Below, piece by piece: positions 21,507 through 46,986 of a stretch of DNA of 64,000 nt (position 1 is its first letter; each line of letters opens with the position of its first letter). The stretch lies in the NCBI RefSeq assembly GCF_017744095.1, contig NZ_JAGHQX010000013.1, forward strand, positions 1 to 64,000. The letters run 5' to 3'. Source of the stretch: Shimia sp. R10_1 (GTDB lineage Bacteria; Pseudomonadota; Alphaproteobacteria; Rhodobacterales; Rhodobacteraceae). The notes under the pieces are model-generated. The model worked only from the letters and a program-made list of their open reading frames with translations. It was not told the origin of the DNA and ran no database searches. A program made the translations under genes and the position numbers.

Positions 21507-21583
21507 GCCTCCGGCGGGGATATTTTTGGCAAGAGGAAAACCACCACGCTTCCTCTTGCGCCAAATATCCTCGCCGAAGGCAC
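21507..21583. repeat. Inverted pair of dispersed ATATTT elements
   Basis: A plus-strand copy (GCCTCCGGCGGGGATATTTT at 21507-21526, then GGCAAGAGGAA) faces a minus-strand copy whose reverse complement reads GCCTTCGGCGAGGATATTT then GGCGCAAGAGGAA. The arms are about 32 bases with few mismatches around an 11-base centre, so the transcript can form one long hairpin. It sits between the phnE end and the hexapeptide transferase start. Confidence 0.7.
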
Positions 21584-29593: not shown

Positions 29594-29610
29594 CGCGCGC
29601 CCCTCACCTT

Positions 29611-29660
29611 CTTATTCTCAAAATATCCCCGCCGGAGGCCCCCGCCCGCAACGCGGGCGA
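29611..29660 (-). repeat. Dispersed ATATTT element, copy between coxL and coxD
   Basis: On the minus strand a 7-bp hairpin (CGCCCGC GTT GCGGGCG) is followed by GGCCTCCGGCGGGGATATTT and a purine-rich tail ending 18 bases before coxD. The left half, GCCTCCGGCGGGGATATTTT, is identical to the plus copy at 21507. Confidence 0.65.
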
Positions 29661-42944: not shown

Positions 42945-43019
42945 CCCTCCCGAATGTGACCCATGCTCACACAGGGGCTGCGCTTGACGGCGCGGCCCTT
43001 TCGCGCCTATGGCAGCGCT

Positions 43020-43214
43020 ATGGAACAGCTTGAAGAACAGATTGCCCACCTGACCCGCACCATCGAGGATCTCAGCGATGTGGTGGCCCGCCAGGACAGC
43101 GAAATCGCCCTGCTCACCCGCCGCGTGCACATGCTGATGGAACGCGAAGCCAGCCGCGAGTCTGAGGGCGGCGGTGGCGTGGTCATCGGCGACGAACGCC
43201 CGCCACACTATTGA
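43020..43214 (+). CDS. slyX: SlyX family protein
   Basis: With the ATG at 43020 the protein is 64 residues, starting MEQLEEQIAHLTRTIEDLSDVVARQ, a short coiled coil, and ending GDERPPHY, the SlyX C-terminal signature. Function is unknown in general. No strong ribosome site is seen; an in-frame ATG at 42963 would add 19 residues that do not look conserved. Confidence 0.82.
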   Translation: MEQLEEQIAHLTRTIEDLSDVVARQDSEIALLTRRVHMLMEREASRESEGGGGVVIGDERPPHY

Positions 43215-43224
43215 CCGTCCGGTC

Positions 43225-43311
43225 GCTCAGCTGCGCTGAGCCTGCGTGAGGGCGCTGCCCTCGTCACATCAATGATGTGACTTCACCCGGGATATTTTTG
43301 GAATGAGAAAG
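43225..43311 (+). repeat. Three-hairpin ATATTT element upstream of dnaE
   Basis: Three consecutive hairpins, GCTCAG/CTGAGC (43225-43241), GAGGGC GCT GCCCTC (43248-43262) and GTCACATC AAT GATGTGAC (43263-43281), are followed by TTCACCCGGGATATTTTTGG and a purine tail. A near-identical element follows dnaE at 46899. The third stem differs between the copies at two base pairs with pairing kept. Confidence 0.75.
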
Positions 43312-43350
43312 CTGGCGGGTGTTTCCTCCTCCGCGGGGCTGAGATAGCCT

Positions 43351-46300
43351 GTGGCAATGACCACAGCTCCCCGATTCATTCACCTGCGCACCCACACGGA
43401 ATACTCTCTGCTGGAGGGCGCCGTGCGCGTGAAAAAACTGCCCGCGCTTTGTGAAAGCATGGGCATGCCTGCGGTGGCCATCACCGACACCAACAGCCTG
43501 TTTGCCGCGCTTGAGTTTTCGGTGGGCGCGCAGAAAGCCGGCATTCAGCCCATCGTGGGCTGTCAGGTCGATCTGCACATGCCGCACAACGACCCGACCG
43601 GGCGCACCGCGCCGCCGCCCCCCGCCCCCATCGTGCTGCTCAGCCAGCGCGAGGAAGGCTATGAAAACCTCATGAAGCTGTCCTCCTGCCTCTACGTGGA
43701 CAAGGGCGGGCAGCTGCCGCAGGTCACGATGGAAGAGCTGGCGGCGCATTCGACTGGGCTGATCTGTCTCACGGGTGGGCCGGACGGGCCGATGGGGCGC
43801 ATGATGCGCGCAGGCCAGCACGCCGCCGCGCAGGCCATGATGACCCGCTTCAAAGAGATCTTCGCCGACCGGCTCTATGTAGAGCTGCAGCGCCATCCCG
43901 GTGAACATGGCAAACCCGAAGCCGAACAGCGGACCGAGCGCGGCTTTATCGAAATGGCCTACGCCATGGACATCCCGCTGGTCGCCACCAATGATGTCTA
44001 CTTCCCTACAACCGATATGTATGAGGCGCATGATGCGCTGATCTGTATCTCGGAAGGGGCCTATGTGGATCAGCAGGAGGGCCGCCGCCGCCTGACCCCG
44101 CAGCACTATTTCAAATCGCAAGAAGAGATGATCACGCTGTTTGCCGATCTCCCTGAAGCGATTGAAAACACGGTGGAAATCGCCAAACGCTGCGCCTTTG
44201 CCACCTATCTGCGCGACCCGATCCTGCCCAAATTTGCCGACGATGAGGTGGCTGAGCTGCGCCGCATCGCCAATGAGGGCCTGCAGGCCCGCCTTGCGGT
44301 GATCCCCCACGCCGTCAGTGTGGAGGAATATCAGGAACGGCTCGATTTTGAGCTCGGCATCATCGAAGGCATGGGCTTTCCCGGCTACTTCCTGATCGTT
44401 GCGGACTTCATCCAATGGGGCAAGGATCAGGGCATCCCCGTGGGGCCGGGCCGGGGCTCCGGTGCGGGCAGCCTTGTGGCCTACGCGCTCACCATCACCG
44501 ACCTGGATCCGCTGCGCTACTCGCTGCTGTTTGAACGCTTCCTCAACCCGGAACGGGTGTCGATGCCCGACTTTGACATCGACTTCTGCATGGACCGCCG
44601 CGAGGAGGTCATCAAATATGTGCAGCAGAAATACGGCCGCGACAAAGTGGGACAGATCATCACCTTTGGTGCGCTTCTGTCCAAAGCCGCCGTGCGTGAC
44701 ATCGGCCGCGTGTTGCAGATGCCTTATGGCCAAGTGGATCGCCTCTCCAAGCTGATCCCGGTGGAGGGCGTGAAGCCCATGTCCATCGCCGACAGCCTCA
44801 AGGAAGAGCCCCGCCTGCGCGAAGAGGCCGAAAACGAAGAGGTGGTGAACCGCCTCCTGACCTACGGCCAGCAGGTTGAAGGGCTGTTGCGCAACGCCTC
44901 TACCCACGCCGCTGGTGTGGTGATTGGTGACCGTCCGCTGGATGCGCTGGTGCCGCTTTACCAAGATCCCCGTTCTGACATGCCCGCCACCCAGTTCAAC
45001 ATGAAATGGGTCGAACAGGCGGGTCTGGTGAAGTTCGACTTCTTGGGTCTGAAAACCCTCACGGTAATCCAGAACGCCATCGAGCAGATCCACAGCTCGG
45101 GCCGCCCGCTGCATGTGGCCGCCGATGGCACCCAGCTCTATGAGCCTGCCGATGGGGCTGAGAACCAGATCAACGCCATCCCGCTGGATGACAAACCCAC
45201 CTACGATCTCTATTCCGCCGCCAAAACTGTGGCCGTGTTTCAGGTGGAATCCACCGGCATGATGGATGCGCTCAAGCGCATGAAACCCACCTGTATTGAG
45301 GACATCGTTGCCCTTGTGGCGCTCTATCGCCCCGGCCCGATGGAGAACATCCCGGTCTATTGCGAGGTCAAAAACGGGCAGCGCGAGATCGAATCCGTCC
45401 ACCCGCTGATCGACCACATCCTTGAGGAAACTCAGGGCATCATCGTTTATCAGGAACAGGTGATGCAGATCGCGCAGGTCATGGCGGGCTACTCCCTTGG
45501 CGGCGCCGACCTGTTGCGCCGCGCCATGGGTAAGAAGATCAAAGAGGCGATGGACGCCGAGCGCCCGAAATTCGAAAAAGGCGCGGCCGAAAACGGCGTT
45601 CCGGCCAAGAAAGCCTCCGAGGTTTTCGACCTTCTGGAAAAATTCGCCAACTACGGCTTTAACAAATCCCACGCGGCCGCCTATGCGGTGGTGAGCTATC
45701 AGACCGCCTGGCTCAAAGCCAACCATCCGGTTGAATTCATGGCCGGGGTGATGAACTGCGATATCCACCTCACTGATAAGCTCGCGGTCTATTTTGAAGA
45801 GGTCAAAAAAGCCCTCAAACTGCCCTATGTGCCACCCTGCGTGAACCGCTCTGACGCCACCTTCAAAGTGGTCGATGGCGCGCTGGTCTACGCCCTTGGG
45901 GCGCTGAAAAACGTCGGTGTGGAGGCGATGAAGCTCGTCACCGAAGGCCGCAAGGTCGACGGGCAGGATAAGCCTTTTGCCACGCTCTTTGATTTCGCCC
46001 GTCGGGTGGATCTCAAAAAAGTGGGCAAACGCCCGCTGGAAATGCTCGCCCGCTCCGGCGCCTTTGATCAGCTCGATGGCAACCGCCGCCGTGTGCTGGA
46101 AAGCCTCGATGGTCTGGTCAACTACTCCGCCGCCATTCAGGAACAGAAGACCTCAAATCAGGTCTCGCTCTTTGGCGAGGCCGGGGATGACCTGCCAGAG
46201 CCGCGCCTCTCCCCCGCCGGGGACTGGTTGCAGGCTGAGCGTCTGGATGAGGAAGCCAAGGCTATCGGCTTCTTCCTCTCCGGTCACCCGCTCGAAGATT

Positions 46301-46875
46301 ACATGGCCGCTCTGAAACGCAAGCAGGTGATGACGCTGGATGAGCTCACCGACAAGGCGCGCGGCGGGGCCTGTATCGCCAAACTTGCCGGTCGTGTTTC
46401 TGGCCGCCAAGAACGCAAATCCGCGCGCGGCAACCGCTTCGCCTTTGCCCAGCTTTCCGACCCAACCGGGGCCTATGAGGTCACGATCTTCTCGGACACG
46501 CTGGAAAAATGCCGCGACTATCTGGAGACTGGCTCCAAGGTGGTGGTGACCGTGAAGGCGGAAATGGAAAGTGATCAGCTCAAGCTACTGGCCCAATCCA
46601 TGACCCCGGTGGACACCATTGTTGCCGATGCCGGAAATGCGGGCCTCAAGATTTTCCTCGATGATGCCAACGCCGTGGGGCCAGTGGCAAACATCCTGCA
46701 GGGCGCAAAGGAAAGCATGCCAAAGGCCCCCAAAGGGCCGATCATGTTCTGCCTCACCAATATGGAGCTGCCCGGCGAGGTGGAGATCGACGTGGGCGCA
46801 GGCTTCCCGGTCAATCCGCAGATCAAAAGCGCGCTGAAATCTGTCGAAGGCGTGATGGCGGTGCAGGAGGTCTGA
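43351..46875 (+). CDS. dnaE: DNA polymerase III alpha subunit
   Basis: A 1174-residue replicative polymerase. In order: PHP domain (FIHLRTHTEYSLLEGAVRV), polymerase core with VGPGRGSGAGSLVAYAL and the catalytic acidic motif PDFDIDFCMDRR, tandem fingers region, helix-hairpin-helix, and an OB-fold near 980-1070 (IAKLAGRVSGRQERKSARGNRFAF). The length and order are those of DnaE1. The GTG at 43351 and the ATG at 43357 are both possible starts; neither has a clear ribosome site. It is flanked on both sides by matching hairpin elements. Confidence 0.97.
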   Translation: MAMTTAPRFIHLRTHTEYSLLEGAVRVKKLPALCESMGMPAVAITDTNSLFAALEFSVGAQKAGIQPIVGCQVDLHMPHNDPTGRTAPPPPAPIVLLSQREEGYENLMKLSSCLYVDKGGQLPQVTMEELAAHSTGLICLTGGPDGPMGRMMRAGQHAAAQAMMTRFKEIFADRLYVELQRHPGEHGKPEAEQRTERGFIEMAYAMDIPLVATNDVYFPTTDMYEAHDALICISEGAYVDQQEGRRRLTPQHYFKSQEEMITLFADLPEAIENTVEIAKRCAFATYLRDPILPKFADDEVAELRRIANEGLQARLAVIPHAVSVEEYQERLDFELGIIEGMGFPGYFLIVADFIQWGKDQGIPVGPGRGSGAGSLVAYALTITDLDPLRYSLLFERFLNPERVSMPDFDIDFCMDRREEVIKYVQQKYGRDKVGQIITFGALLSKAAVRDIGRVLQMPYGQVDRLSKLIPVEGVKPMSIADSLKEEPRLREEAENEEVVNRLLTYGQQVEGLLRNASTHAAGVVIGDRPLDALVPLYQDPRSDMPATQFNMKWVEQAGLVKFDFLGLKTLTVIQNAIEQIHSSGRPLHVAADGTQLYEPADGAENQINAIPLDDKPTYDLYSAAKTVAVFQVESTGMMDALKRMKPTCIEDIVALVALYRPGPMENIPVYCEVKNGQREIESVHPLIDHILEETQGIIVYQEQVMQIAQVMAGYSLGGADLLRRAMGKKIKEAMDAERPKFEKGAAENGVPAKKASEVFDLLEKFANYGFNKSHAAAYAVVSYQTAWLKANHPVEFMAGVMNCDIHLTDKLAVYFEEVKKALKLPYVPPCVNRSDATFKVVDGALVYALGALKNVGVEAMKLVTEGRKVDGQDKPFATLFDFARRVDLKKVGKRPLEMLARSGAFDQLDGNRRRVLESLDGLVNYSAAIQEQKTSNQVSLFGEAGDDLPEPRLSPAGDWLQAERLDEEAKAIGFFLSGHPLEDYMAALKRKQVMTLDELTDKARGGACIAKLAGRVSGRQERKSARGNRFAFAQLSDPTGAYEVTIFSDTLEKCRDYLETGSKVVVTVKAEMESDQLKLLAQSMTPVDTIVADAGNAGLKIFLDDANAVGPVANILQGAKESMPKAPKGPIMFCLTNMELPGEVEIDVGAGFPVNPQIKSALKSVEGVMAVQEV

Positions 46876-46898
46876 CCTCCCGCGCTGCGCTTGGGTCC

Positions 46899-46986
46899 GG
46901 CTCAGCTGCGCTGAGCCTGTGGAGGGCGCTGCCCTCGCCCCATCACAGATGGGGCTTCACCCGGGATATTTTGGGCAAGAGGAAGG
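46899..46986 (+). repeat. Three-hairpin ATATTT element downstream of dnaE
   Basis: It repeats the layout of the upstream element: GGCTCAG/CTGAGCC (46899-46917), GAGGGC GCT GCCCTC (46922-46936) and GCCCCATC ACA GATGGGGC (46937-46955), then TTCACCCGGGATATTTTGGG and a purine tail. It starts 23 bases after the dnaE stop. The rest of the 327-bp gap to 47202 shows no gene, only a short tandem ATACCGACG pair near 47050-47070. Confidence 0.75.

Follow-up and report, generated by a model that had tools for sequence, protein, structure and literature searches.

In Shimia sp. R10_1, dnaE lies between two copies of a short palindromic mosaic repeat found across the Rhodobacteraceae

In the 64,000-nucleotide stretch of DNA that we analyzed (the window), dnaE (43351..46875, + strand) lies between two copies of a short element with three hairpins and a purine tail, as the first-pass annotation had described, and we were able to place each part by position. 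Copy 1 (43225-43311, +) follows a slyX gene (42963-43214, Pfam SlyX match), and copy 2 is positioned after dnaE. On the + strand, copy 1 consists of hairpin 0, an optional module (GCTCAGC-TGC-GCTGAGC, 43225..43241), hairpin 1 (GAGGGC-GCT-GCCCTC, 43248..43262) and hairpin 2, whose stem covaries (GTCACATC-AAT-GATGTGAC, 43263..43281). In both copies TTCACCCGG follows hairpin 2, and then come GATATTT, a spacer and the tail; in copy 1, CACCCGG and the core GATATTT span 43284..43297, and a free 3-base spacer, TTG, with the purine tail GAATGAGAAAG spans 43298..43311. Copy 2, also on the + strand, has hairpin 0 (GGCTCAGC-TGC-GCTGAGCC) at 46899..46917, hairpin 1 (GAGGGC-GCT-GCCCTC) at 46922..46936, hairpin 2 (GCCCCATC-ACA-GATGGGGC) at 46937..46955, CACCCGG and the core GATATTT at 46958..46971, and the free 3-base spacer TGG with the purine tail GCAAGAGGAAG at 46972..46985. 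The copies are 84% identical across 64 nt, and in the third hairpin two base pairs differ with pairing kept, again as claimed. On either strand, each copy folds better than shuffled sequences, with z from -1.8 to -3.4. The folds of copies 1 and 2 also had an outer helix in which CCGG pairs with CCGG; we dropped it, as it is absent, by eye, from the printed copies of the family. Searching the window with the Rfam 15 covariance models at the gathering threshold returned one tRNA only, with no match for either dnaE-side element up to E=1. Copies also stand on both sides of dnaE in G436 (L242); in G438 (L235) they do so in decayed form.

With at most one mismatch allowed, the core pattern is found five times in the window, where 0.61 matches would be expected. 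Three copies in the window are of type A: one with the GCCTCCGGCGG module (21507..21539, +), its tail towards the next copy; its inverted partner, with the GCCTTCGGCGAG variant (21549..21581, -); and a third at 29607..29639 (-). The genome as a whole holds about 60 copies, of which the dnaE-side elements are two; the pattern matched 59 times, and setting aside by eye five matches without any module left 54, two of the five remaining in the gene-context figures for this genome. Neighboring copies 300-4200 bp apart number 4, against 3.4 or 4.8 expected under two random placements, in a test that covers closeness of copies rather than flanking of one gene as such and that used about 63 copies, nine of them uninspected (eight found by the model only, at E 4e-10 to 0.004, and one by the type A pattern only). 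The tie to dnaE is at chance level in this genome. Because copies are genome-wide and such close pairs no more frequent than chance, dnaE-specific regulation is unsupported.

A model of the repeat matched 62 of 80 sampled Rhodobacteraceae genomes and had no match in the other 18; outside the genus, one of 113 class genomes gave a match, a marginal one. Copy counts per genome in the family survey are read as lower bounds (67 means at least 67), and an order-wide pattern search supplied example loci, not counts. The suggestion that the elements could be a dispersed repeat with hairpins is supported: those beside dnaE belong to a family of short, palindromic mosaic repeats that spans the Rhodobacteraceae and is found at gene 3' ends. 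Among the titles and abstract openings listed, the repeat is undescribed, though subscription papers lie largely outside that scope and an earlier description is possible.

A copy of the repeat opens with hairpins or the GCCTCCGGCGG module, continues with GGGATATTT and, past three free spacer bases, closes with a purine tail; AGTATTT is used in copies seen in other genera. Hairpin 0, as scored by a script pattern, is present in 2 of 54 copies in this genome, 4 of 48 in the copy-rich genome G440 and 0 of 46 in another, G041. GATATTT begins about 2 bases after a C-run, and longer T-runs occur only in some copies. The length of this final C-run matches those of the runs in hairpin 1 among the 146 of 185 candidates that could be parsed (among the 39 left out are type A copies from both G440 and G041), by a parser whose preference for equal hairpin-1 runs favors that equality but not equality with the final C-run.

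Some species have a uniform tail that differs from the tails of their congeners. Across the 48 copies of G440, variation is 0 bits at six tail positions left free by the search, 0.39 at the final base of the tail and 1.2-1.8 at the three positions of the spacer. Tail subfamilies occur in different shares in different species. Between slyX and dnaE, five relatives have a CCAAATGAAG-type tail; some congeners have the copy upstream of dnaE and others lack it, and species with a copy there differ from one another in its tail class and its hairpin 2. The subfamily shares and this patchy presence would suit a selfish REP/BIME-like repeat, spread and homogenized by some enzyme, without host function and surviving where it is harmless, namely at gene ends. 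The dispersed, mostly intergenic copies in both orientations point the same way, as do the inverted pairs of some genomes; by a simple pattern, a tail-to-tail partner lies within 75 nt of 3 of 54 copies in this genome, 14 of 48 in G440 and 0 of 46 in G041. However, a variable spacer between fixed sides is not expected from simple copying, and in this genome every combination of tail and 5' module occurs. The differences in tail class and hairpin 2 at the slyX-dnaE site fit conversion or selection, although a fresh insertion may also account for them. As for an enzyme, this genome has one match to the Y1 transposase (PF01797), with a stop inside, and 8 of 25 genus genomes match, but none was found in G440 or G041, the genomes richest in pattern matches; RAYT-driven mobility is unsupported by this search. 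Taken together, a selfish repeat is possible but somewhat unlikely. Separately, one 96-base query in distant mode (E 0.01) gave no support for a phage origin, with no match in 50,697 phage records, or for a plasmid origin, with two weak matches, both Tritonibacter, in 72,556 plasmid records.

We next consider where copies lie with respect to genes, as called by a simple codon-usage finder. Of 241 copies, 40 that overlapped a predicted gene or lay at a locus edge were excluded; the 201 placed between two genes, which include both members of inverted pairs, comprise 87 in convergent gaps, 49 and 51 in tandem gaps, and 14 in divergent gaps (80 of 119 loci were used in one set, and in one set a rule was applied to reassign 15 copies that overlapped a predicted gene). 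Among 381 distinct gaps without the core, 55 are convergent, 220 tandem and 106 divergent (versus copies, p=7e-14 for convergent and p=4e-10 for divergent). Restricting the comparison to distinct gaps of 40-400 bp at the loci of this genome, G440 and G041 gives 50 convergent, 46 tandem and 4 divergent gaps with a copy, against 9, 58 and 35 without (p=6e-11 and 2e-8). Orientation in tandem gaps is even: 49 elements run with transcription and 51 run against it (p=0.92). A canonical terminator stands at 14 of 146 gene ends adjoining a copy and at 18 of 76 other ends (p=0.008), a small comparison at loci picked around copies. At ends beside copies of a single orientation, it is present in 10 of 70 that read along the element and 4 of 61 that read against it, so the two directions may be unequal. 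By eye, a canonical terminator lies immediately before or after some of the copies.

If the copies were ordinary intrinsic terminators whose U-tract is unusual (GGGAUAUUU), their 3' location, the hairpins ahead of a T-rich stretch and the scarcity of other terminators nearby would all follow. Against this stand the even orientation, about ten conserved bases beyond the T-rich stretch, and a T-run that is often just ATATTT, with A, C or G as the next base, and we regard this explanation as improbable.

The annotation preferred a structured RNA, with hairpins that work in the 3' UTR of an mRNA or yield a small RNA, and the compensatory change that it noted does extend far past the two dnaE-side copies. 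Hairpin 2 forms in 98 of 99 eligible copies and in 133 of 495 shuffled stretches; across 74 different arms, 96.8% of positions are paired, and exchanging arms among copies brings this down to 62.6%. This strong covariation and the better-than-shuffled folding favor an RNA, but the elements oppose the tandem gene as often as they follow it. Moreover, mismatches are few in hairpin 2 (24 of 695), with 2 G-T against 15 A-C; in 94 control intrinsic terminators taken at these loci, G-T numbers 34 (of 850) and A-C 11. Hairpin 2 is nearly without wobble pairs, unlike these terminators, and selection on a sense RNA, as the annotation read the covariation, is therefore unsupported. If real, the asymmetry points to an RNA from the opposite strand. 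It is not proof of one: collapsing a recurrent allele to a single count reduces it to 9 to 2 (p=0.065), so that it is significant only without such collapsing, and the other stems disagree, hairpin 1 having 17 A-C and 11 G-T and the hairpins before type A 15 G-T and 6 A-C. We consider a structured RNA quite unlikely, and caution that in palindromic repeats covariation alone is no evidence for a functional RNA.

Pairing could also be kept by mutation, through template switching at quasi-palindromes, and not by selection, in which case the covariation says nothing about function. The few mismatches and near absence of wobble pairs in hairpin 2 are consistent with this, and slippage or template switching could give the equal lengths of the final C-run and the hairpin-1 runs. 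Such a process is compatible with the other readings but leaves the fixed core, the tail and the gene-end position unexplained, and as the explanation in itself it seems unlikely.

We favor, with a probability of roughly 0.4, a model in which the repeat is a DNA-defined, two-way, terminator-like gene-end element, resembling REP/BIME without their transposase, whose function we infer. The element would be defined on double-stranded DNA at gene 3' ends, where transcription arriving from either side may be stopped or limited. The hairpins would be its structural part, and the block of GGGATATTT, spacer and tail a putative recognition site for a host factor whose preference would drift from species to species. 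A selfish repeat is a close rival here, as one tolerated only at gene ends would be expected at the same positions. A more elaborate form of the two-way element, which we hold to be doubtful, is a family-wide punctuation of gene ends: a composite site of hairpins, GGGATATTT, free spacer and tail, read both ways by a trans-acting factor whose tail recognition changes fast, with genomes shifting their tail dialect in concert and the equal lengths of three runs (the G-run and the C-run of hairpin 1, and the C-run ahead of the core) reflecting two alternative pairings or an intramolecular triplex within the mechanism. If transcription does end at the element from both sides, then a large share of the punctuation of genomes in a widespread bacterial family is unannotated, and the repeats would readily supply two-way insulators. 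With their tail dialects, they lend themselves to a clean test of how short bacterial repeats evolve in concert, and to the search for a binding factor that co-evolves with the tail.

Several known systems share features with the repeat. DNA uptake sequences of Neisseriaceae and Pasteurellaceae have lineage dialects and often form inverted pairs near terminators, with about a thousand copies, many inside genes. The repeat is likewise a short site with lineage-specific dialects, but it occurs in tens of copies, mostly intergenic, with hairpin modules attached. RIME and CIR are intergenic mosaic repeats of rhizobia and Caulobacter; they too are alphaproteobacterial intergenic mosaic palindromes, in other lineages, and the likeness is one of description. 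Like intrinsic terminators, the repeat sits at gene 3' ends with a hairpin and then a T-rich stretch, and has fewer other terminators nearby; unlike them, it occurs in either orientation, has conserved bases past the T-rich stretch, and lacks the wobble signature in hairpin 2. REP and BIME of enterobacteria, pseudomonads and others are dispersed, extragenic, hairpin-forming sequences that occur singly or as inverted pairs and fall into subfamilies, with suggested roles in termination and protein binding (PMC2817692). The repeat resembles them in being dispersed, palindromic, hairpin-forming and extragenic, and in its inverted pairs and subfamilies. A GTAG/GTGG-type REP head was seen at the hairpin foot in none of the printed copies, as judged by eye; the repeat instead carries the GGGATATTT core, a free spacer and a species-specific tail.

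Two three-hairpin elements had been described beside dnaE (43351-46875), and compensatory changes in one stem, here called hairpin 2, had been taken as a sign of selection on RNA structure. Rechecked on the sequence, both elements and their stems are as the first-pass annotation had them: copy 1 (43225-43311) comes after slyX (42963-43214), and copy 2 (46899-46985) lies between dnaE and a flavin oxidoreductase gene. Neither element matched Rfam at up to E=1. In the slyX-dnaE gap of 24 relatives, judged by eye, a recognisable copy is kept in seven, carrying the tail of our genome in the congener G443, CCAAATGAAG-type tails in five, and a different core and tail in the congener G438; two or three further relatives look decayed, and one locus is incomplete. 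A same-site counterpart of copy 2 was found in G443 only. Copies stand on both sides of dnaE at the locus L242 of the congener G436, as do decayed copies at L235 of G438. Our genome also encodes a second DnaE-type polymerase (G000:C38:253444-255984, locus L248), 33% identical across the aligned part. The finding is real but its frame changes, from a structured RNA linked to dnaE, which was not borne out, to a family-wide repeat at gene ends.

A pattern of the core, GATATTT, and the purine tail, allowing up to three mismatches, occurs at 59 places in the Shimia sp. R10_1 genome, against 5 for a reversed control pattern. Five of the 59, without any module, were excluded by eye, and a script divided the remaining 54 into type B, which has hairpin modules (36 copies), and type A, which has a GCCTCCGGCGG module (18 copies). 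The covariance-model search that had been proposed for the two elements was run with a model of 57 type B copies (alignment A1); it finds 41 places in the same genome (43 under other filter limits), 8 of them outside the 54, and a type A pattern adds one more, for a total of about 60 copies. Across 80 Rhodobacteraceae genomes (80 genera), 62 match the model, ten of them with at least 67 scored candidates each, and 18 have no match. In a class sample of 115 genomes, the model matches three: our own, a single congener and, with E=0.006, an outsider. This outsider is the only match among 113 genomes of other genera, of which 21 are listed, all outside Rhodobacteraceae, and 92 unlisted. The type A pattern agrees with this distribution, with a single match in each of 2/285 genomes outside Rhodobacteraceae and 13, 1, 15 and zero matches in four genomes within it. 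Searching named genomes for exact type A matches gave at least 119 stretches. Rhodobacterales names predominate among the 80 listed; for a few the label goes no deeper than class or phylum, and a single metagenome bin is labelled Hyphomicrobiales.

Type B copies consist of an optional hairpin 0, hairpin 1 (G-run, short loop, C-run), an optional hairpin 2, a C-run, GG, GATATTT, a 3-base spacer and the purine tail, while type A copies read GCCTCCGGCGGG, GATATTT, spacer, tail. A strong hairpin lies within 45 bases upstream of 51/171 type A copies, compared with 14/171 shuffled stretches. In our genome, the tail classes CAAGAGGAAG and AATGAGAAAG each occur with both types. A type A pair at 21507-21581 in the window stands tail to tail between two genes both on the minus strand, its tails complementary over about ten bases; another pair, at locus L096, is head to head, with GCCTCCGG modules inward and tails outward. 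Of 25 genus genomes, 19 contain matches to GGGATATTT-NNN-G with three further A positions fixed; a control pattern matches in none of the 25. Among the genus genomes listed, the free tail positions are species-specific and in several species near-uniform: GCGAAAGGAA in G434, GCAAAAGGAA in G435, GCAAGAGGAA in G436, GCCAAAAGAA in G440 (51/51 matches) and GAATGAGAAA in G441 (11/13). Tail classes are mixed in G041, G442, G443, G445 and our genome. In 48 copies fetched from G440, six free tail positions are invariant and the last base varies slightly (0.39 bits); the spacer takes 16 different triplets. In other genomes AGTATTT or GGTATTT replaces GATATTT (matches in G003; loci L088, L119, L127, L140 and L235), so the core also has dialects.

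Covariation beyond chance across copies, which the first-pass annotation had named as a test, was found. The interval between hairpin 1 and the C-run has a suitable length in 99 copies, and hairpin 2 forms in 98 of these, compared with 133/495 shuffled stretches. Its 74 different arms are Watson-Crick paired at 671/695 positions (96.8%), against a mean of 62.6% and a maximum of 68.6% when arms of equal length were swapped, and of 8 pairs predicted by RNAalifold on A1, 5 are changed on both sides. The mismatches in hairpin 2 are A-C 15, G-T 2 and other 7, compared with G-T 34, A-C 11 and other 8 in 94 intrinsic terminators found at the loci of these copies (G-T against A-C, p=6.8e-6); with one recurrent allele counted once, A-C to G-T stands at 9 to 2 (p=0.065). 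Hairpin 1 has A-C 17 and G-T 11, and the hairpins before type A have G-T 15 and A-C 6. The palindromes are thus kept nearly perfect, without a consistent RNA-strand signature. Pairing is possibly maintained at the DNA level, through template-switching correction, or as RNA from either strand.

Run lengths were parsed in 146 type B copies. The G-run of hairpin 1 is as long as the C-run before the core in 110, against 56 expected by shuffling (rho 0.70; 0/2000 shuffles as high), and the C-run of hairpin 1 equals the final C-run in 125, against 62.5 expected. Shared descent in subfamilies may explain part of this equality; a bolder, speculative reading is that the runs would alternate between two pairings or form a triplex.

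We examined the position of 241 copies (59 from our genome, 88 type A from 80 of the 119 named loci, 48 from G440 and 46 from G041), and 201 were assigned to a gap between two genes: 87 to convergent gaps, 49 to tandem gaps with the element running along transcription, 51 to tandem gaps with it running against, and 14 to divergent gaps. Distinct coreless gaps taken from these sources number 55 convergent (57 with duplicates), 220 tandem and 106 divergent; against this background, copies are over-represented in convergent gaps (p=7e-14) and avoid divergent ones (p=4e-10). Both orientations are equally common in tandem gaps (p=0.92), and the pattern is unchanged when distinct gaps are counted rather than copies. 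Canonical terminators stand at 14/146 gene ends beside a copy and 18/76 elsewhere (p=0.008), the latter a small control drawn from loci chosen around copies; beside single-orientation copies, they stand at 10/70 ends reading along and 4/61 reading against. Our leading reading, at a probability of about 0.4, is that the gene-end repeat acts as a putative two-way, terminator-like element. A selfish repeat ranks close behind this terminator-like role.

The sole Y1 transposase match in our genome (G000:C32:405452-405730) carries an in-frame stop. As no REP head was seen in the gene-end repeat, a difference from REP/BIME, and no Y1 transposase was found in the copy-rich genomes G440 and G041, we do not class the repeat as REP. 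In its behaviour, the gene-end repeat is nevertheless like REP/BIME.
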